Positions 11,919-47,797 of a stretch of DNA of 53,316 nucleotides are shown here, piece by piece. The DNA comes from Erysipelotrichaceae bacterium (GTDB lineage Bacteria > Bacillota_I > Bacilli_A > RFN20 > CAG-826). A model generated the notes under the pieces. It made no database searches and had not been told where the DNA came from. It saw nothing but the letters and a program-made list of their open reading frames with translations. Position 1 is the first letter of the stretch, and every line of letters starts with the position of its first letter. The stretch is from NCBI GenBank assembly GCA_022777645.1, contig JALFFX010000059.1, forward strand, positions 1 to 53,316. The letters run 5' to 3'. Position numbers and translations under genes: made by a program.

Positions 11919-12256
11919 GTCCCGACCCGATAAGCCATGTTTTGTCGAGGGCAAAAATTTATCTATGCATTGCTGCATGCTGGCTTCGATTCAATTCTCT
12001 AGCCAACCTCCCCTACCAAATTTGGGTTTCTCGCTTGAGGGGTTTACCAACGTTTCATCCTAATATTTCTACTAGGCTCGTCTCTGTGGCACGTTAAGAA
12101 GCATCACCATGAACATAAGTTTTTAGGCTAGCCTCGCCGTTATGTACTCCTACATACCTGGCGTTATTTTTTCCGCCAGCACAATCACTACCTCCATCGC
12201 AGAAGGTGCGAGCATGGACTTTCCTCTAGTTTCCTAGCAATTGCCTGGGTCGGGTA
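11919..12256 (-). ncRNA. rnpB: RNase P RNA
   Basis: Minus strand contains GAGGAAAGTCCATGCTCGCAC and ACAGAGACGAG conserved cores, terminal helix CCCGACCC/GGGTCGGG; adjacent to gpsB as in Bacillus. Confidence 0.93.
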
Positions 12257-21320: not shown

Positions 21321-21443
21321 CAGGGCGAAAAACAATTGTTTCTTTCATCCAGACTTTACTGTCGCCTCTAGAATTTCACTAGATCAACCATTATATGGTT
21401 CGTGGGGTTTACCACCGGTCAGGAATTTCACCTTGCCCTGAAA
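21321..21443 (-). promoter_or_regulatory. FMN (RFN) riboswitch
   Basis: Minus strand AGGGCAAGGTGAAATTCCTGACCGGTGGTAAACCCCACGAACC...TGATCTAGTGAAATTCTAGAGGCGACAGTAAAGTCTGGATGAAAGAA...CGCCCTG. Confidence 0.95.
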
Positions 21444-21453
21444 CTAAAAATAA

Positions 21454-28852: not shown

Positions 28853-30586
28853 ATGAAAAAATCAAAAATGACCTTAAGTATTGCTCTTGGTGCAATTGCA
28901 TGTACTATCCTTGCTGGATGTGACAATGCTACCTATTCACCTGAGGGCTATATCTTAACCTATACGAACTCTGCCGGCGAAACAATGCGTTATACTGCTG
29001 AAGACTTATTCGGAAGCTATTATAACGACTCAGGCAAAGTATCGACAATGTTCGACAGTATTTATAAAGTCATCGTTCGCAACTACTTCACAAGCGAAAA
29101 TGCTGGCTATGCAAAATACTCAGAAATATTGAAAAATGCAAAAAATGATGTTGAAGGTGTTAAATCAACAGCTGAAAAGAACGCTGATACAAATTCAACA
29201 AGTTATGATGAAGAATGGGACGCTCTTCTCAAATCCAATAACTGTGATAATGAAGAAGAATTGCTCGAAAAATTCATCTATGACCGTGAATTGACAGAAT
29301 TCAATGATCAATTCTACGAAAAGAATACAGATTTCTTACGCGATGCTGTTCCATCAGCGGTAGCTACACAAGCAAATCCAACAAATTATGAAGGATACTT
29401 GTACACTAAAGCTCCATACCATGTTCGTCATATCTTAGTTAAAGTCAATGACAGTGGTTCAACAAATTATTGGAATTCCACCATCGATGAAAGCAACGCG
29501 ATTAAGTTATACGATGTCGCCAGCGCTCTTGCAAATGGCGGACAAACATTTGGTAAAATCGCCCAGCTCAACTCTGATGATTCATCAGCTTCAAGTTATG
29601 GTGATCTTGGCATAATGGATAAAGATACTGGATTTGTTAACGAATTCAAATTAGGTATCTACGCATACGAAAACATTTATAATAACATTACTAAAACAGC
29701 TGCTGCAGCAAGCGAAATCGCAATGAATAGCGAAATTGTTGCTGATTACAAAGCTGTTGGCGGAACAACAATTGCCAAAATTCCATATGGCGCATTCGTA
29801 AAATTATACGAAGTCAGAGATGTCACAAAAGATAACCAAAACCGTGATGTCAACGATGGCAACGCCAATTTCTATCCACGTAACGTTTACTTCAACAAAT
29901 ATTTGAATAAACATTATGTTGGTGTTATCACTCCAGAAGATGTCGAAGAAGGAAGCAATGATTATTCTTCATTAGCAGGCTTCAAAGATGTCGATGGTCT
30001 TGGCAAAGTATTATGCACAAGTGAAGGTCAACCAATCTTAGTTGTTCGTGCAGGTACAAGCGATTATCAAGGTATTCATTTCATTGTTATTGAACGTAGC
30101 CCACTTATTTCCGGCGAAGTCAAAGGAACAACTCTTTCTGAATATTACACAACAAAATATCCATCACAAGAAGGTTATCCAGTTGACAGCAATAACAATC
30201 CAAAACAAACATACGTTAACTTCCTCAACCAAGATGTTAAAGCTTATAAAGAAAGAGCAACAACAGTTGAGAATAAAATTAAAGGTTTTGATACCGACCT
30301 CAATAAATTTATTTATAGCAAATACGTCAGCGAAGAAAAAATCAAATTCAATGACGCAAAATTAGAAGAAGCTATCAATAATTGGATTGATGCCAGCAAA
30401 GTTAAAAAAGCATTCGATGCTGATATTTCATGGGAACAAACATGGGATTCGTACATCGAATCACTTAAGGTTCAAAACAACGAAAGATTAAAATTAATCC
30501 CAGAAGTCTGTGCTATCGGATTTAAAACACACACAGGTGCTGATTGGGCCGATGGAGGAGTTTGCTATGACAACAAGAACAGGTAA
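28853..30586 (+). CDS. PrsA-like foldase lipoprotein with parvulin-type PPIase domain
   Basis: Lipobox ILAGC; YHVRHILVKVND...GGQTFGKIAQLNSDDSSASSYGDLGIMDKDTGFVNEF. Confidence 0.8.
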   Translation: MKKSKMTLSIALGAIACTILAGCDNATYSPEGYILTYTNSAGETMRYTAEDLFGSYYNDSGKVSTMFDSIYKVIVRNYFTSENAGYAKYSEILKNAKNDVEGVKSTAEKNADTNSTSYDEEWDALLKSNNCDNEEELLEKFIYDRELTEFNDQFYEKNTDFLRDAVPSAVATQANPTNYEGYLYTKAPYHVRHILVKVNDSGSTNYWNSTIDESNAIKLYDVASALANGGQTFGKIAQLNSDDSSASSYGDLGIMDKDTGFVNEFKLGIYAYENIYNNITKTAAAASEIAMNSEIVADYKAVGGTTIAKIPYGAFVKLYEVRDVTKDNQNRDVNDGNANFYPRNVYFNKYLNKHYVGVITPEDVEEGSNDYSSLAGFKDVDGLGKVLCTSEGQPILVVRAGTSDYQGIHFIVIERSPLISGEVKGTTLSEYYTTKYPSQEGYPVDSNNNPKQTYVNFLNQDVKAYKERATTVENKIKGFDTDLNKFIYSKYVSEEKIKFNDAKLEEAINNWIDASKVKKAFDADISWEQTWDSYIESLKVQNNERLKLIPEVCAIGFKTHTGADWADGGVCYDNKNR

Positions 30587-32276
30587 ATTATTGCTCGCCT
30601 TATCCGCAGCAATGATTCTTGGTGGTTGTGATCCAATCGAAGCTCTTCCACCAAATTATGAATCACCAATCGCTGTCGTTGGCGAAGGCGATACAAAAGT
30701 TGATGTTTATGAAAACATGATGGGTGTTCTCTTCGATGGCACAACATCAAACAAAAAAGATGATGTCTTATCAAATTTCATCAACATCATTGCTGAAGAC
30801 CAATTCGGTAAATATAGTGATATCAAAACATTAGTAGAAGAAAATAATGACGCTAATATTGCTGCATTCATTGCAAATCACAAAAACGCCTATGTTCACG
30901 ATAACAAAGTGAATGATGGAGACAACGAAGTTGAAGAAGATGCTTATTTAGCAGCTAAATATAACACAACTGTTGCTGCTATTCAAAAACAAAGATTAGT
31001 CAATTTCTACAATTCTGTTAAAGACAAAATCAATGAAGCATTCTACAACGAAATTGTTGGTAAATCATACAATGATGACACCGGTAAATTCCATGAACAA
31101 CGTTTAGCCTATGCTCATTATGCTTCCCTTTATGATGTCAATATCAATGCCGCTACTTGGTATGAAGGCTATCTTACTCCAGAACTTAAGAAAGATGATG
31201 TTTCAAGCTTCATCCACTTAGATGATGGAAGATATGATGACTACATCAATCGCTCGCTCGTGCGCAATATATATAAAGATAAATTAGTTGAAGAATATTT
31301 GCTTGCCAATAACTATTCAACACTTGGTCGTGCATATGGTCGTAAAGTCAACATCATCAAATTAACACGTGATGAAAAATATAAAGACTTACCAAATACT
31401 CTTCTCAACAAATATGCTGAATTATATGTTCACGCCGGACAAGACATTGACTTTGAAACAATCGCCAATGCATGGAGAGGATTCCACGGTATTGATAAAG
31501 ACGGTAACATCGTCGGATTAAGCACTAATGAAGAAGCTCTTCTTGAAGCCTGTGGCTTAGTTAAAGTTACAAAAATTATCGACGGAGTAACATATAAATA
31601 CTTCAAAGAAACAAAATACGGTCAATTAATCGAAAGATATTCATTAATCGATGAAGATAACCGTTATGCAAGTGAAGAAGCTAATTCCGCTCTTCAAGAA
31701 TTCACATCAAGCCTTAAATACACCAAAGAAAAAGGTTTAAAAATCAAATTAGCAGAACTTGCTTTATCTGATTACACAACCGATGGCTGGTATGTGAAAA
31801 ATGGTGGCTTAACTGATTTACCAGAAGCAATTCGTAACAGATTGTTCAACATTAACGTCTCTAAAGAAGTTGACAATGTTGATCCAGCTACTTATGAATA
31901 TGCTCAAACAGATTACACCAAATATATCAAGGGACATTATTATTTAACACCAGCAACAAGCGAAGCTGGCGATGAAAATAATTTCATCATCTATGATGAT
32001 GGTAGCTTCTACATGATTGAAGTTGAAGAAGCTGTATCTACTTCAAAATTAAATATTGATGGATCAGCAAGCTATGTTGAACTTAAAACAGGTGTTGGTG
32101 CCTTATTCACCGAAGAAATTGCTCGTGAATTAGCAGCAACTCTTGGTACAAAAGATTCATACGTCAACAACGCATATGCCTCATATATTGAAAAATATGC
32201 TGTCATGTATCACGACACATCAGTCTTAGATTTCTTCAAAGAAAAATTCCCTGAATTATTCGACGAAGAAGAATAA
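30567..32276 (+). CDS. Lipoprotein, PrsA/SurA-like architecture without clear PPIase motif
   Basis: MTTRTGKLLLALSAAMILGGCDPIE; SD GGAGGAG at 30553-30559; overlaps upstream prsA-like CDS by 20 nt; start corrected from 30510. Confidence 0.75.
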   Translation: MTTRTGKLLLALSAAMILGGCDPIEALPPNYESPIAVVGEGDTKVDVYENMMGVLFDGTTSNKKDDVLSNFINIIAEDQFGKYSDIKTLVEENNDANIAAFIANHKNAYVHDNKVNDGDNEVEEDAYLAAKYNTTVAAIQKQRLVNFYNSVKDKINEAFYNEIVGKSYNDDTGKFHEQRLAYAHYASLYDVNINAATWYEGYLTPELKKDDVSSFIHLDDGRYDDYINRSLVRNIYKDKLVEEYLLANNYSTLGRAYGRKVNIIKLTRDEKYKDLPNTLLNKYAELYVHAGQDIDFETIANAWRGFHGIDKDGNIVGLSTNEEALLEACGLVKVTKIIDGVTYKYFKETKYGQLIERYSLIDEDNRYASEEANSALQEFTSSLKYTKEKGLKIKLAELALSDYTTDGWYVKNGGLTDLPEAIRNRLFNINVSKEVDNVDPATYEYAQTDYTKYIKGHYYLTPATSEAGDENNFIIYDDGSFYMIEVEEAVSTSKLNIDGSASYVELKTGVGALFTEEIARELAATLGTKDSYVNNAYASYIEKYAVMYHDTSVLDFFKEKFPELFDEEE

Positions 32277-32287
32277 AAAAATATTTA

Positions 32288-32314
32288 AGGGGCAGCGTAT
32301 TGCTGCCTCTTTTA
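32288..32314 (+). terminator. Terminator after lipoprotein pair
   Basis: GGCAGC-GTATT-GCTGCC followed by TCTTTTATAT. Confidence 0.7.
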
Positions 32315-32336
32315 TATAAAAAGGAGATAAATAATT

Positions 32337-32756
32337 ATGGCAACTGATTGCTTATTTTGTAAAATCGTAAATGGAGAAATACCTTCCACAAAAATATATG
32401 AAGATGATGATGTTATTGCCTTTTTAGATATTTCTCAAACAACTATTGGTCATACCTTAGTCGTCCCTAAACAACATTTCGATAATTTCTTAACAACAAA
32501 TAAAGATATCATGCACAAGGTTATGGACGTTGCTCAACGCATCGGACAAGCCGAAATAGCGATGTTAGGAGCTAAAGGAGTAAATATCTTAACAAATGTC
32601 AATAAAGAGGCAGGACAAAGCATTTATCATTTCCATGTCCATGTCATCCCGCGATATAGTCGCGATGAAGGATTTAGAATTGAAATGAAAGAAAATCCTG
32701 ATCTTAAAAAATTATCTCTTCCTGCTCTCGCAAGCGAAATCAAAAAAGGGTTATAA
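32337..32756 (+). CDS. hit: HIT family protein
   Basis: CLFCKIVNGEIPSTKIYEDDDVIAFLDI, HFHVHVIPR. Confidence 0.95.
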   Translation: MATDCLFCKIVNGEIPSTKIYEDDDVIAFLDISQTTIGHTLVVPKQHFDNFLTTNKDIMHKVMDVAQRIGQAEIAMLGAKGVNILTNVNKEAGQSIYHFHVHVIPRYSRDEGFRIEMKENPDLKKLSLPALASEIKKGL

Positions 32757-38308: not shown

Positions 38309-39064
38309 TTAATGGTGATTTAACACTTGAATCGATACTGCGTGAGCGTCGTTTTCGAGACGTTTTATAATTTCATCAATGTCAATTTCTTTGTTTGTTT
38401 CTGGTGATAATTTGAATGTAACTTCAATTCTTGATGCATCGCCATCTTTGACGATTTGGCTTGTTACATCAGTAACTGAGCAACTATAATCTTTTGCGAC
38501 TTTAAGAAGAACGGTCATAACAGGAACATCGCTTGGTGCAAGCATGATGAGCAACGGATTGCTTTTTGAGATTCTTCTTTCAAGACTTCTAAAGCTAATG
38601 AGAACAAGCATTACGACAACTGTGCCGCATATAGCAAGGATGAAATTCATTGATCCACAGCATAGACCAATCGCCATGACAAGCCAAATAGTAGAAGCAG
38701 TTGTTAAACCTTTGATACCACCATTATTGTGAATAATCGCACCGGCGCCAAGGAAACCAACGCCAGCAACAACTTGAGCAGCAAGTCGAGCCGGATCACG
38801 AGTGCCAAATATCGCAGAAAATCCATAAATGGATACAATCATAATCATACAAGAACCAACACCGACTAATAAGTGAGTTCTAAGACCGGCGCTACGTCCG
38901 CGTTTTTCTCTTTCGTAACCGATAATGCCACAAAGAGCAACACAAAGGACCAATGAAATAATACATAAAATTAAATTGCCCCATGGCCATTCTCCACCTA
39001 AACCGAAGTTGCTATTAAACCATTCAGCAATTTTTTGATCGATAGTTGTTACCATATTTTTCAC
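38309..39064 (-). CDS. MgtC/SapB family protein
   Basis: GYEREKRGRSAGLRTHLLVGVGSCMIMIVS, RDPARLAAQVVAGVGFLGAGAII, GLTTASTIWLVMAIGLCCG. Confidence 0.93.
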   Translation of the reverse strand: MKNMVTTIDQKIAEWFNSNFGLGGEWPWGNLILCIISLVLCVALCGIIGYEREKRGRSAGLRTHLLVGVGSCMIMIVSIYGFSAIFGTRDPARLAAQVVAGVGFLGAGAIIHNNGGIKGLTTASTIWLVMAIGLCCGSMNFILAICGTVVVMLVLISFRSLERRISKSNPLLIMLAPSDVPVMTVLLKVAKDYSCSVTDVTSQIVKDGDASRIEVTFKLSPETNKEIDIDEIIKRLENDAHAVSIQVLNHH

Positions 39065-40052: not shown

Positions 40053-40124
40053 ATGCTTATTATCTAATAAAATTAATGATAAATTAACCGCTAATTAAAT
40101 TTTCTTTTATTTGTAAGAAAAAAG

Positions 40125-40144
40125 GTAGCAAATAATCGCTACCA
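40125..40144 (-). terminator. Terminator of lipoprotein array copy 1
   Basis: ggtagc...gctacc inverted repeat with T-run on minus strand. Confidence 0.7.
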
Positions 40145-40163
40145 AATTGTTAATCTAATTAAC

Positions 40164-40751
40164 TTATTTCATCCATTCAGCTGAAATTGAAGTTTTAAAA
40201 TCAAACGAATCAGAATCACTGTTGAAATGTGCATGTGTAGATGAGCCAGCAAGCGTCATATCAGCATTTGTTTTATATTCGCTTTCATAGTAAAGAGTTA
40301 ACGATGATCCTCCAACTGAAAATGATGTAGTAAGTGATGATTTAATTGAAAGCGCATCACCATCTAAATAAAATTTAACATAAGAATCTGATCCTACATC
40401 GGCTTCTTTGAGCTCTGAGAGTATTTCATCAATTGCGCTTTCGCTTACGCGATATTCGGCAATTTCGCTGGCAGATGTAGTGAATGTAAGTACTACAGTT
40501 TTTTCGGTTCCTTCAACACCATAAATACTTTCAAATTGACCTTTCATGGTTGTACCAAATGTGCCAGTTCCTTGAAGTGTTTCAACTTTAGTTGTGAGTT
40601 TGACGCCAGTATAAACAGTTGAAATATCTGGTGTTCTTTCGTTTGCTTTTTTGACAGCAGCTTTTGCTTCATCAGCTGTAACTTCTTTAGCGCAGCCAGC
40701 AAGCAAACAAACGCTTGATAAGCATAATAATGTTTTTGTGATTTTCTTCAT
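40164..40751 (-). CDS. Tandem lipoprotein paralogue 1 (alpha type)
   Basis: 195 aa, MKKITKTLLCLSSVCLLAGCAKEVTADEAKAAV...ISAEWMK; lipobox LAGC. Confidence 0.85.
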   Translation of the reverse strand: MKKITKTLLCLSSVCLLAGCAKEVTADEAKAAVKKANERTPDISTVYTGVKLTTKVETLQGTGTFGTTMKGQFESIYGVEGTEKTVVLTFTTSASEIAEYRVSESAIDEILSELKEADVGSDSYVKFYLDGDALSIKSSLTTSFSVGGSSLTLYYESEYKTNADMTLAGSSTHAHFNSDSDSFDFKTSISAEWMK

Positions 40752-40861
40752 ATGAGTAAAATCCTCCCTAATTTACTTAATTATTGCATATAGAAAAGAT
40801 TTTATAAATATTTACTAATATATTTTTTTATTTTCAAAGAGAGTTGTTTTATAACAAAAAA

Positions 40862-40881
40862 GGTAGCGAATAATCGCTACC
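40862..40881 (-). terminator. Terminator of lipoprotein array copy 2
   Basis: ggtagcga-ataa-tcgctacc with T-run on minus strand. Confidence 0.8.
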
Positions 40882-40901
40882 AAATTGTTAATCTAATTAA
40901 C

Positions 40902-41489
40902 TTATTTCATCCATTCAGCTGAAATTGAAATTTTGTAATCAAATGAATCGGATTCACTGTTGAAATAGATATGTGTAGATGCACCAGAAAGTGTCATATC
41001 AGCATTTGTCTTATATTCAACGTCAGAGTACATAGTAAGTGCTGATTCTCCAACTGCAAATGAAGTTGCAATTGATACATTTATTGAAAGCGCATCACCA
41101 TCTAAATAGAATTTTGCATAAGAATCTAAGCCCACATCAGGGGTTTTGAGTTCTGCGAGCATCTCATCAATTAAATCTTCGCTAAGGCGATAAATAGCAA
41201 TTTCGCTGGCATTTGTAGCGAATGTAAGTTCTAAAGTGGTTTCAGTTCCTTCAACACCATTAATATTTTCATATGTTGTTTGCATGGCTGAACCAAATGT
41301 ACCAGTTCCTTTAAGTGTTTCAACTTTGGATGTAACTTTGACACCAGTATAAACAGTTGAAATATCTGGTGTTTTTTCGTTTGCTTTTCTGACAGCAGCT
41401 TTTGCTTCATCAGCTGTAACTTCTTTAGCGCAGCCAGCAAGCAAACAAATGCTTGATAAACATAATAATGTCTTTGTGATTTTCTTCAT
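40902..41489 (-). CDS. Tandem lipoprotein paralogue 2 (beta type)
   Basis: 195 aa, same signal peptide and C-terminal ISAEWMK; shares LTMYSDVEYK with copy 4. Confidence 0.85.
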   Translation of the reverse strand: MKKITKTLLCLSSICLLAGCAKEVTADEAKAAVRKANEKTPDISTVYTGVKVTSKVETLKGTGTFGSAMQTTYENINGVEGTETTLELTFATNASEIAIYRLSEDLIDEMLAELKTPDVGLDSYAKFYLDGDALSINVSIATSFAVGESALTMYSDVEYKTNADMTLSGASTHIYFNSESDSFDYKISISAEWMK

Positions 41490-41615
41490 ATGAGTAAAAT
41501 CCTCCCTTGTTTATTAAATTATTGCACACGAAAAAATCTACATGCAAGAATTTATAAATATTAATAGGATGACTACTTTTTTTATTTTTAAATAGTCTTA
41601 ATTTATAACAAAAAA

Positions 41616-41635
41616 GGTAGCGAACATTCGCTACC
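41616..41635 (-). terminator. Terminator of lipoprotein array copy 3
   Basis: ggtagcga-acat-tcgctacc with T-run on minus strand. Confidence 0.8.
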
Positions 41636-41655
41636 AAATTGTTAATCTAAATAAC

Positions 41656-42243
41656 TTATTTCATCCATTCAGCTGAAATTACATATTTCAATTCAAATGA
41701 ATCAGAATTACTGTTGAAATGTACATGTGTAGATGAACTAGCAAGTGTCATATCAACATTTGTTTTATATTCACCTTCATAGTATAAAGTTAATGATGAT
41801 CCTCCAGCTGAAATTGATGTAGCGAGTGATGTTTTAACTGAAAGCGCATCACCATCTAAATAGAATTTAACATAAGAATTTGAGCCTTCCATGGCATCAT
41901 CAAGATCTGAGAGCAAACCATCAATTAAACTTTCATTAACGCGATATTCAGCAATTTCGCTGGCAGATGTAGTGAATGTAAGTTCTACAGAGTTTTCTGT
42001 TCCTTCAACACCATAAATCTTTTCATATTGTGACTTCAGGGTTGAGCCAAATGTGCCAGTTCCTTTAAGTGTATCAACTTTAGTTGTGAGTTTGACACCA
42101 GTATAAACAGTTGAAATATCTGGTGTTTTTTCGTTTGCTTTTTTGATGGCAGCTTTAGCTTCATCGGCTGTGACTTCTTTAGCACAACCAGCAAGCAAAC
42201 ATACGCTTGATAAGCATAATAATGTTTTTGTGATTTTCTTCAT
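41656..42243 (-). CDS. Tandem lipoprotein paralogue 3 (alpha type)
   Basis: 195 aa; shares GGSSLTLYYE.EYKTN with copy 1. Confidence 0.85.
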   Translation of the reverse strand: MKKITKTLLCLSSVCLLAGCAKEVTADEAKAAIKKANEKTPDISTVYTGVKLTTKVDTLKGTGTFGSTLKSQYEKIYGVEGTENSVELTFTTSASEIAEYRVNESLIDGLLSDLDDAMEGSNSYVKFYLDGDALSVKTSLATSISAGGSSLTLYYEGEYKTNVDMTLASSSTHVHFNSNSDSFELKYVISAEWMK

Positions 42244-42359
42244 ATGAGCAAAATCCTCCCTAATTTATTTAATTATTGCACATAGGAAAAATTTTATAAA
42301 TATTCATTAATAAATTTTCAACTTTTTTTATACAAAGAGAATTGTTTTATAACAAAAAA

Positions 42360-42379
42360 GGTAGCGAATATTCGCTACC
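42360..42379 (-). terminator. Terminator of lipoprotein array copy 4
   Basis: ggtagcgaatattcgctacc perfect inverted repeat with T-run on minus strand. Confidence 0.8.
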
Positions 42380-42399
42380 AAATTGTTAATATAATTAAC

Positions 42400-42978
42400 T
42401 TATTTCATCCATTCAGCTGAAATTACATATTTAAAATCCAATGATTCAGATTCAGCATTGAAATACATACGTGAAGACATGCTGGCAAGTGTCATATCGG
42501 CATTTATTTTATATTCAACGTCTGTGTACATAGTTAATGTTGTTGTTCCAGTTGATCTTGATGCAGCAATTGATGATTTAATTGAAAGTGCATCACCATC
42601 TAAATAGAATTTAACATAAGAATCATTTTTGCCTTCTACATTTGAGACCATATAATCAATTGAACCTTCGTCCATGCGATATTCAGCAATTTCGCTGGCA
42701 GATGTAGCGAATGTATATTCTACAGAGGTTTCAGTTCCTTCAACACCATACATTTTTTCAGCTGATGCTTTCATGGCTTCACCAAATGTACCAGTTCCTT
42801 GAAGTGTTTCAACTTTGAACGTGAGTTTGACACCGGTATAAACAGTCGAGATATCTGGTGTTTTTTCGTTTGCTTTTTTGATGGCAGCTTTAGCTTCATC
42901 GGCTGTAACTTCTCTTGCACAGCCAGCAAGCAAACATACGCTTGATAAGCATAATAATGTTTTTGTGATTTTCTTCAT
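42400..42978 (-). CDS. Tandem lipoprotein paralogue 4 (beta type)
   Basis: 192 aa; shares LTMYTDVEYK with copy 2. Confidence 0.85.
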   Translation of the reverse strand: MKKITKTLLCLSSVCLLAGCAREVTADEAKAAIKKANEKTPDISTVYTGVKLTFKVETLQGTGTFGEAMKASAEKMYGVEGTETSVEYTFATSASEIAEYRMDEGSIDYMVSNVEGKNDSYVKFYLDGDALSIKSSIAASRSTGTTTLTMYTDVEYKINADMTLASMSSRMYFNAESESLDFKYVISAEWMK

Positions 42979-43091
42979 ATGAGTAAAATTCTCCCTTGTT
43001 ATTAAAATTATTACATATGAAAAAATCTATATGCAAGAATTTATAAATAACTACAAATAAGATGGCTACTTTTATATTCAAAAAAAATTTT

Positions 43092-44135: not shown

Positions 44136-45236
44136 TTAGCAATCTTTCTTATATGTGTCGTGTTTTTTCGGGTTATAAATCTCACTAATCCACATAAGTG
44201 TTGATGAATTTCCTTCACCAATATTTGTGATTTTATGTGTATACATCGGATAGATATGAACAAGGCGAGGTTCATCTCCTTTTGTGATATCAATGCATAT
44301 GTCATCATTAACAATATTTTTTTGAACGATTTCACATTGTCCTTTGACAACATAAAATATTTCATCTTTGTATTTGTGGTAATGACCACCTTTTGTAATA
44401 TTTGGGAAAGAAATATTTTCGCTTATTTGTCCGAATCGTTTTGATTTAAATAATTCTTCAAATGATCCTCTTTCATCGCTTGCAAAATTATATTCATATC
44501 CTTCATCACTTGCAAAATAAAGATAAGTCTTAAAAAGCTTTAATTCAAAATCATTATAAATGTATGGAAGATGTCTTTTTGATTCCACTTCTTGTTTGAA
44601 ATATTTTAACAAAATTGTAAGTCTATCTAGTGAACAAGGAGTTGTTGGTAAAGAAAGAAATTCTTTTTGTCCTTCTTTTTTATTATTCTCTATAAGAGAA
44701 ATAATATCATCACAAACATCATCGACATAAGTGAAATTAATAATCGTACTGCCATCATCGATTTTAATTGGTAAATCATGGGCAATGTTATATGCGAAAG
44801 TGGCGACCACTGTGTTGTAATTTGGTCTAGATCTTGGTCCAAAAATATTGCTTAGGCGATAAATGTAGCAAGGAAGATTGCTCGCTAAAAGATAATCTTC
44901 TGCCATCTTTTTTGATTTGCCATAATCATTATCGAGTTCAGCTTGTATTGAACTTGTCATAATAATTGGCAAAGATAAATTATTGTCCTTTATTAAATCC
45001 ACCAGAGTTTTTGTAAAATCAAAATTGCCTTTATAAAATTCTTCTTTTGTCAAAGGACGATTAATTCCTGCTAAATGAACAACATAATCAGCTTGTTTTA
45101 AAAACGATAACAATTCATCGACTGTATTATCTTTATCAAATTCTAAAACTTCGAAGTTTTTTCTTTTTAATAAAGTAGATAATCTACTACCAATAAAGCC
45201 TTTTGCTCCTAATATTAATATTCTCATTTTCTCCAC
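44136..45236 (-). CDS. capF: CapF/WbjC/FnlB-like NAD-dependent reductase with C-terminal cupin
   Basis: MRILILGAKGFIGSRLSTLLKRK, YRLSNIFGPRSRPNYNTVV; cupin FPNITKGGHYHKYKDEIFYVVKGQCEI. Confidence 0.88.
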   Translation of the reverse strand: MEKMRILILGAKGFIGSRLSTLLKRKNFEVLEFDKDNTVDELLSFLKQADYVVHLAGINRPLTKEEFYKGNFDFTKTLVDLIKDNNLSLPIIMTSSIQAELDNDYGKSKKMAEDYLLASNLPCYIYRLSNIFGPRSRPNYNTVVATFAYNIAHDLPIKIDDGSTIINFTYVDDVCDDIISLIENNKKEGQKEFLSLPTTPCSLDRLTILLKYFKQEVESKRHLPYIYNDFELKLFKTYLYFASDEGYEYNFASDERGSFEELFKSKRFGQISENISFPNITKGGHYHKYKDEIFYVVKGQCEIVQKNIVNDDICIDITKGDEPRLVHIYPMYTHKITNIGEGNSSTLMWISEIYNPKKHDTYKKDC

Positions 45237-46366
45237 ACCATTTTATTAACGATATTTGTATATGATTGGATTAATTTTACTATTTTATCGCTGACATTTG
45301 TATCAACATAATCAGGGACTGGGATGCAACCTTTTTTATTTAAAAGGGCAACTTCCACGGCTTGAAGAAGTGATTTTTCATCAATTCCTGCTAAAACAAA
45401 GCAAGCTTTGTCAAGGGCTTCTGGTCTTTCTGTTGATGTGCGAATGCAAACGGCTGCAAGTGGTTTATTAATGCTGGCAAAGAAACTGCTTTCTTCAGGC
45501 AATGTACCAGAATCTGAAATAACGACAAAAGCATTCATTTGCAAATTGTTGTAATCAGTAAATGAAAGCGGCTCATGCATAATAACTCTTTCATCAAGAA
45601 CAAAGCCTGTTTCTATCAATTTCTTTTTGCTGCGTGGGTGGCATGAATAAAGAACTGGCATGTCATATTTTTTTGCAAGGGCGTTAATCGCATTAAATAA
45701 AGAATAAAAGTTTTTATCAGTGTCGATATTTTCTTCTCTATGAGCGCTTAGCAAAATATATTTTCCGCTTTTAAGATTTAGGCGTGTAAGAATATCACTA
45801 TTTTGAATACGAGAAAGATGTCTTGAAAGAACTTCTGCCATTGGAGAACCACTCACATATGTTCTTTCTTTTGGAAGTCCGCATTCTGCTAAATATCTTC
45901 GAGCGTGTTCACTATAAGCGATATTAACATCAGAAATAATGTCGACAATTCGACGATTTGTTTCTTCTGGAAGACATTCATCTTTGCAGCGATTGCCGGC
46001 TTCCATATGGAACAAAGGAATATGAAGTCTTTTCGCGCTTATCGCCGAAAGACATGAATTTGTGTCACCAAGCACTAATAAAGCATCTGGTTGAGTTTCT
46101 TTCATCACTTCATAAGATTTAGCGATAATATTGCCCATTGTTTCGCCTAAATCTTTCCCAACAGCGTTTAAATATATATCCGGATTATCTAAAGATAAAT
46201 CTTTGAAAAATATCTCGTTTAAAGTGTAATCATAATTTTGACCAGTATGAACTAATAATGTGTCAAAATAAATACGACATTTTCTAATAACTTCAGATAA
46301 ACGGATGATTTCAGGACGAGTCCCAACAATAATCATTAGTTTCAATTTGCCATTATTTTTAAACAT
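45224..46366 (-). CDS. capG: UDP-N-acetylglucosamine 2-epimerase (CapG/FnlC-like)
   Basis: LKLMIIVGTRPEIIRLSEVI, LVHTGQNYDYTLNEIFF, HMEAGNRCKDECLPEETNRRIVD, SDSGTLPEESSFF. Confidence 0.92.
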   Translation of the reverse strand: MFKNNGKLKLMIIVGTRPEIIRLSEVIRKCRIYFDTLLVHTGQNYDYTLNEIFFKDLSLDNPDIYLNAVGKDLGETMGNIIAKSYEVMKETQPDALLVLGDTNSCLSAISAKRLHIPLFHMEAGNRCKDECLPEETNRRIVDIISDVNIAYSEHARRYLAECGLPKERTYVSGSPMAEVLSRHLSRIQNSDILTRLNLKSGKYILLSAHREENIDTDKNFYSLFNAINALAKKYDMPVLYSCHPRSKKKLIETGFVLDERVIMHEPLSFTDYNNLQMNAFVVISDSGTLPEESSFFASINKPLAAVCIRTSTERPEALDKACFVLAGIDEKSLLQAVEVALLNKKGCIPVPDYVDTNVSDKIVKLIQSYTNIVNKMVWRK

Positions 46367-46377
46367 TGTTTTGCCTC

Positions 46378-47571
46378 CTAGTCGTGTTGACGAACTGGAC
46401 CACCAAATAGTTCGAGTTTTTTAAGCAATTTTTTCATACCTTCGACATCAAGTCTTGCGGTGTTATGAGATGTATAACTTTCCCCAAGGTTTAATTTCTT
46501 GTTTCCTTTGGAGAAATATTTATCATAATTTAAATCGCGATTATCAGCCTTGATGCAAAAGAAGTTGCCAAGATCAACACTTTTAAGCATTTCCTCTTGT
46601 GTTACAAGAGTTTCATATAATTTTTCACCATGGCGAGTGCCGATATAAGAAATACCGGTTTTGCTATTTGTTAATTCAATGACTGCTTTTGCTAAAACAT
46701 CAATGGTTGCAGCCGGCGCTTTTTGAACGAACAAATCACCTTGTTCACCATGTTCAAAAGCATATAAAACAAGATCAACCGCATCATCAAGAGTCATCAT
46801 GAATCTTGTCATGTCTGGATTTGTAATGGTAATTGGTTTTCCTTCTTTAATTTGGTTTAAAAACAAAGGAATAACGCTTCCGCGGCTCGCCATAACATTG
46901 CCATAACGAGTAAGGCATAATACGGTGTCCCCTGCTAATAATTGACGGCTTCTCGCAATGACATTTTTCTCCATCAACGCTTTTGATATCCCCATTGCGT
47001 TAATTGGATATGCTGCTTTATCTGTGGATAAGAAAATAGCTTTTTTAACATGATTTCTAACGCAGGCAGTGATGACGTTATCACTTCCTATGACATTAGT
47101 TCTCACCGCTTCCATTGGATAAAATTCACATGATGGAACTTGCTTTAATGCCGCAGCAGAAAAAACATAATCAACACCTCTAAAGGCATCAATAATTGAA
47201 TCGAGATTGCGAACATCACCAATATAAAATTTTAGTTTTTCGGAGTTGTATGCCTTACGCATATCATCTTGCTTCTTTTCATCACGTGATAAAATTCTAA
47301 TTTCTTTAATATCCGTGTTTAAGAAGCGATCCACCACTGCGTGACCAAAACTTCCAGTTCCACCAGTAATTAATAAAATCTTGTCTTTGAGAATAGATGT
47401 ATCTTTCGCCATATATTCCATAAGTTTTTCTTTGATTCTTTCAAGTTTTAATTTATCGACTTTATTTTCGTCTTTTTCATATAAAAAGTATGTGCGAAGA
47501 GGCATACCAACAATTTTTGATGCTTCCGCTTGAGTTAATTTGCAATTTATGCGTAATTGTTTGAGTTCCAT
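46378..47571 (-). CDS. capE: UDP-N-acetylglucosamine 4,6-dehydratase (CapE/FnlA-like) with N-terminal HTH domain
   Basis: HTH MELKQLRINCKLTQAEASKIVGMPLRTYFLYEKDENKVDKLKLERIKEKL followed in frame by ILLITGGTGSFGHAVVDRFL...FSAAALKQVPSCEFYPMEAVRTNV; SD AAGGAGTG before MELK; start corrected from 47652. Confidence 0.9.
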   Translation of the reverse strand: MELKQLRINCKLTQAEASKIVGMPLRTYFLYEKDENKVDKLKLERIKEKLMEYMAKDTSILKDKILLITGGTGSFGHAVVDRFLNTDIKEIRILSRDEKKQDDMRKAYNSEKLKFYIGDVRNLDSIIDAFRGVDYVFSAAALKQVPSCEFYPMEAVRTNVIGSDNVITACVRNHVKKAIFLSTDKAAYPINAMGISKALMEKNVIARSRQLLAGDTVLCLTRYGNVMASRGSVIPLFLNQIKEGKPITITNPDMTRFMMTLDDAVDLVLYAFEHGEQGDLFVQKAPAATIDVLAKAVIELTNSKTGISYIGTRHGEKLYETLVTQEEMLKSVDLGNFFCIKADNRDLNYDKYFSKGNKKLNLGESYTSHNTARLDVEGMKKLLKKLELFGGPVRQHD

Positions 47572-47797
47572 AAAACACTCCTTGATAACTAAATAATATT
47601 TTAATTCATTAATAACTTCAATATAAATATGCAATTTTTGCATTTTTTGCATAATATTGCTTCCAATCTAAAATTGCAAAATACAACGAATAATCGACAA
47701 AATAAACTTTCATAGTTTACAAAATAATTTAATTCTCGTATTATTTTAATGACTTCTATGAAGACAAATTTTTTTATCCGGGGTTTTTAATAATATT

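Follow-up and report, generated by a model that had tools for sequence, protein, structure and literature searches.

Tandem lipoprotein arrays as such are already a known kind of locus. What is known of small-genome gut Bacilli comes almost entirely from metagenomes, and most of their surface proteins lack annotation. The closest described system is the lpl, or tandem lpp, group of Staphylococcus aureus (DUF576, PF04507), which comprises tandem paralogous lipoprotein genes with a conserved core, a restricted taxonomic distribution, and an exact function that is unknown (PMC5020093). Here we describe a similar arrangement in a MAG of an Erysipelotrichaceae bacterium, within a stretch of 53,316 nucleotides (contig JALFFX010000059.1) that was analyzed as a whole and is referred to below as the window. 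The array resembles the lpl genes in that it consists of tandem paralogous lipoprotein genes, has a conserved core, and is taxonomically restricted. It differs from them in that a separate terminator follows every copy and the locus bears no mark of a genomic island. The copies have no Pfam match to DUF576, and this domain exceeds the cut-off in none of the 24 genomes of the genus. Therefore, the array would work like lpl/tandem lpp while falling outside that family. The staphylococcal genes are the nearest known arrangement, with sequences that are unrelated as far as comparison can tell.

Organization of the array

The minus strand, a detail missing from the earlier note on this DNA, carries four head-to-tail lipoprotein genes transcribed in the order copy 4, 3, 2, and 1 (Table 1). 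All four open reading frames proposed in that note, with starts at 40751, 41489, 42243, and 42978 and ISAEWMK ends, were recovered, and its approximate spacing of 740 bp agrees with the measured values of 738, 754, and 735-744 bp. The encoded proteins (192-195 aa) are 70-82% identical in the reported pairs, which corresponds to a divergence of 18-30%. The signal peptide MKKITKTLLCLSSxCLLAGC, with a lipobox ending in Cys, is present in each of them, and by this sequence pattern all four are predicted bacterial lipoproteins, putatively processed by Lgt and Lsp. The mature protein of about 175 aa would be membrane-anchored and displayed on the surface.

Table 1. Features of the lipoprotein array and the neighboring mgtC gene (positions in the window)
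Feature	Coordinates	Strand	Remarks
Leader of copy 4, type B	42979..43091	-	TTGCAT-18-AATAAT promoter-like; GGGAGA
Lipoprotein copy 4	42400..42978	-	transcribed first; 192 aa; lipobox LAGC, Cys20
Intrinsic terminator, copy 4	42360..42379	-	hairpin pattern and folding
Leader of copy 3, type A	42244..42359	-	TTTATA-17-AATAAT, TG before -10; GGGAGG
Lipoprotein copy 3	41656..42243	-	195 aa; AlphaFold2 model made
Intrinsic terminator, copy 3	41616..41635	-	hairpin pattern and folding
Leader of copy 2, type B	41490..41615	-	TTGCAT-18-AATAAT promoter-like; GGGAGG
Lipoprotein copy 2	40902..41489	-	195 aa
Intrinsic terminator, copy 2	40862..40881	-	hairpin pattern and folding
Leader of copy 1, type A	40752..40861	-	TTTATA-17-AATAAT, TG before -10; GGGAGG
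Lipoprotein copy 1	40164..40751	-	195 aa; transcribed last
Intrinsic terminator, copy 1	40124..40143	-	hairpin pattern and folding
MgtC-family gene	38309..39064	-	also a neighbor of the single-copy relative in genome G009

All copies are intact and have their own signals. They differ from each other at 20-25% of synonymous sites, and a duplicate created by assembly is therefore unlikely. The MAG is 99.6% complete and measures 1.30 Mb, in line with the small genome previously supposed; the array copies are its only strong matches, with no further full copy.

Transcription signals

Each gene is followed by a hairpin GGTAGCGA-NNNN-TNGCTACC with an eight-pair stem and a T6 run, a pattern that occurs at these four sites and nowhere else in the whole 1.30 Mb genome. 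The predicted folding energies range from -11.8 to -16.1 kcal/mol, compared with shuffle means of -2 to -4 (z about -6), and none of 200 shuffled sequences folds as well. Thus, the hairpins and T-runs noticed earlier behave as intrinsic terminators at all four positions.

The leaders are 110-126 nt long and share the motif TGYAATAAT in all four copies. The GGAGG described earlier as conserved lies within GGGAGG upstream of copies 1-3, whereas copy 4 has GGGAGA, and the seemingly uniform leader of about 100 bp falls into two types that alternate along the array, copies 1 and 3 versus copies 2 and 4. The types differ by a 12-nt block, which in copies 2 and 4 places TTGCAT 18 nt ahead of AATAAT. 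The promoter hexamers are weak, and in this AT-rich stretch promoter-like matches are no commoner than in shuffled sequence (22 observed versus 29 expected). As such matches are frequent here by chance, the 5' signals are deduced from how conserved they are and where they lie. The terminators and the conserved leader signals jointly favor four monocistronic cassettes, each probably its own transcription unit with a putative promoter. The independent transcription proposed in the earlier note is thus well founded where the cassettes end (3') but no more than plausible where they begin (5'). The alternating leaders provide a concrete test of differential expression among tandem lipoprotein copies.

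Distribution of the lipoprotein family

The family was not recognized when the sequence was first read, and the array proteins indeed have no family match in Pfam, NCBIfam, PHROG, or PDB. Hits to CbiD, PM2 spike P1, SCO4651, and an alanine-zipper lipoprotein were all far below the cut-off and were rejected as chance. No paper on this family was found in the literature, as judged by titles and abstracts. A full-length relative, 32-35% identical to the array proteins, is present in one of the 23 other genomes of the genus (G009); the matches in other congeners share mainly the N-terminus. Like the array copies, the G009 gene neighbors mgtC, lying 118 nt upstream of it, and has its own hairpin after the gene, as read from the sequence. 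The difference is in copy number, one in G009 versus four in the array. The G009 contig is the same as JAKSVG010000034.1, from a Bacilli MAG of horse faeces. It starts 46 nt before the start codon of the lipoprotein gene, and a collapsed tandem array could break the assembly at such a point; a search for a second or collapsed copy found one copy only, while the contig edge leaves room for more.

Such patchy occurrence would be expected if the lipoproteins had been carried by a phage or another mobile element and inserted beside capsule genes. However, they have no matches in viral, phage, and plasmid collections, the GC content of the array equals that of its surroundings, and the mgtC neighbor is common to the array and G009. 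Mobile origin is largely refuted by these observations, and we consider it very improbable. The family is lineage-restricted, with no match in the libraries searched.

At the level of the bacterial family, a profile combining the array with diverse small lipoproteins has matches in 55 of 179 genomes, many of which cover the N-terminal part only and some of which may be due to chance. Tandem small lipoproteins occur in G140 (two copies), G120 (three), and G122 (two). These resemble the array in protein size, lipobox, the C-terminal ending of the aromatic-x-K type, and tandem arrangement with terminators between the copies, but the identity to the array proteins is only about 15-24%, and the two G140 copies (37%) are far more diverged from each other than the array copies. 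In the comparison of the array with the G140/G135/G125 profiles, hhalign yields E = 1.4e-4 at a probability of 52% with an alignment spanning only residues 2-67. In general, the alignment between sequence profiles of the array and of lipoproteins from other genera is limited to the N-terminal 53-67 residues, and homology to the wider family beyond this region would rest on predicted secondary structure. Small lipoproteins in three related genomes adjoin one common gene (...PRLVMEEASRCLLCLDAPC...) and thus have a conserved context of their own.

Predicted structure

The AlphaFold2 model of copy 3 (pLDDT 82.4, pTM 0.75) begins with a helix, a long strand, and a second helix; a short strand and two further helices follow, and five strands complete it. 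The G140 relative, modeled independently from its own four-sequence alignment (pLDDT 82.6), has the same predicted order of elements, H-E-H-(E)-h-H-E-E-E-E-E, and through this model the G140/G135/G125 small lipoproteins share the order with the array. Neither the copy 3 model nor that of the relative has a significant Foldseek match in PDB or BFVD. Alignments with TM below approximately 0.3 were rejected as evidence of fold, as were CapZ-type alignments (TM up to 0.36, E 0.13-0.25).

The weak Foldseek lists contain many folds that combine a sheet with helices, START-like ones among them. The START/helix-grip lipid binders (CERT START-like, StARkin), which stand at the top of these lists or recur in them, are similar to the array model in having an antiparallel sheet with helices. 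On the other hand, the order of elements differs, and no match has E < 0.01, TM being at most about 0.3: the best E is 0.013 with TM of 0.24-0.31 for the relative, and copy 3 gives no better values. The likeness between the models and these folds may serve as a lead only. Its structure is confidently predicted, the searched databases contain no named relative, and the tandem arrangement recurs, which makes the family a useful target for structural and functional studies.

Copy history

At 46 sites the four copies fall into two pairs. In the leaders, 9 of 11 such sites favor the pairing of copies 1+3 and 2+4, whereas all six sites in residues 1-40 and all four in the region from residue 185 through the stop codon and the 3' end favor 1+2 and 3+4. 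The clustering of these sites along the cassette has a modest P value of 0.034 from few sites. The contrast, new here, is between the leaders and part of the protein core, which pair copies 1+3 and 2+4, and the protein ends and terminators, which pair copies 1+2 and 3+4. The simplest reading is that a two-cassette unit was duplicated and the ends were later converted, and the site pattern thus suggests an ABAB duplication followed by local conversion between neighbors.

Diversification and possible function

Selection was analyzed in two pairs, copy 1 versus copy 3 and copy 2 versus copy 4. Four interior blocks (residues 67-91, 102-122, 136-160, and 168-188) were picked after viewing the alignment, and their contrast with the rest of the protein is accordingly descriptive. 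Replacement changes in the blocks occur at the neutral proportion (P = 0.92), whereas in the rest of the protein they are far below it (P = 3e-8), demonstrating strong purifying selection.

The best explanation, to which we give about an even chance, is that a lineage-restricted family of surface lipoproteins expanded, in one species, to four tandem cassettes with the ABAB and conversion history, yielding envelope-facing binding proteins. In this scenario, an ancestral gene near mgtC would have been duplicated to form a pair, A-B, whose members had different promoters, and duplication of the pair would have produced A-B-A-B. Conversion between neighbors would then have evened out the secretion signal, the N-terminal helix, the C-terminal strand, and the terminator within copies 1+2 and 3+4. 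Purifying selection maintains the scaffold, while the interior blocks are free to change. Most likely, the products would serve as binding proteins that face the envelope, each displaying a largely antiparallel sheet together with helices on the cell surface; copy number would raise dosage and divergence would shift specificity. The array thus probably represents binding proteins diversifying in both respects.

The neutral proportion of interior replacements would also fit four functionally equal copies maintained for high output, the interior differences being drift, and so would the near-identical secretion and terminator parts of the intact copies. Two leader types retained in alternation and a protein divergence as large as that observed speak against equal copies, and we regard dosage as the sole role as rather unlikely.

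A comparably low probability is assigned to an array of host- or phage-facing surface antigens whose copies diversify or recombine to escape recognition. In its favor are the tandem surface lipoproteins with conserved ends and a variable interior, the mosaic pattern between copies, and the rate of replacement in the blocks, which is neutral-like to slightly raised (for copies 2 and 4, pN/pS is 1.29). Against it, positive selection in the blocks is not significant (P = 0.92), silent cassettes, a recombinase, and long inverted repeats are absent from the locus, and every copy is intact. As to phase variation, no inverted repeats of at least 40 nt were found, and the neighbors are SDR, MgtC, cation efflux, and polysaccharide genes. 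The host interaction or variation suggested by the earlier note thus gained no positive evidence, the variation being concentrated in near-neutral interior blocks.

The polar strand face, moreover, is the one conserved among the copies. In all seven of the predicted strands, variation is greater on the hydrophobic face than on the polar one (Fisher P = 0.007 for the four copies and 0.028 with G009); the excess is not significant in the related G140 subfamily. This is the opposite of what is expected for immune escape, and we treat it as a lead only. A further reading would be an undescribed surface-lipoprotein fold family of uncultured Bacilli with a fixed polar face, where the diversified inner, helix-covered hydrophobic side forms alternative ligand pockets and two promoter types alternate; we consider this combination improbable, somewhat more so than the dosage and antigen readings.

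Genomic neighborhood

The array is flanked by SDR and MgtC genes downstream and by cation efflux and polysaccharide-synthesis genes upstream. The records that are close by mgtC come from Bacilli MAGs, one of them from horse faeces, and from an Erysipelotrichaceae MAG. Three genes with polysaccharide-synthesis domains at 44136-47652 (minus strand) encode an epimerase with Polysacc_synt_C, a UDP-GlcNAc 2-epimerase, and a Polysacc_synt_2 protein whose N-terminal part weakly matches an HTH, and look like a capsule-precursor set. At 28853-32756 (plus strand), large lipoprotein open reading frames of 577 and 574 aa, which overlap by 35 nt, are followed by a HIT-like gene. A relative of the latter lies beside mgtC in several congeners, in some of them together with a relative of the second large lipoprotein; the neighborhood has therefore been rearranged within the genus. 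The window also contains an RNase P class B RNA (11926-12252, minus strand) and an FMN riboswitch (21333-21449, minus strand), both scoring well above the Rfam gathering score.
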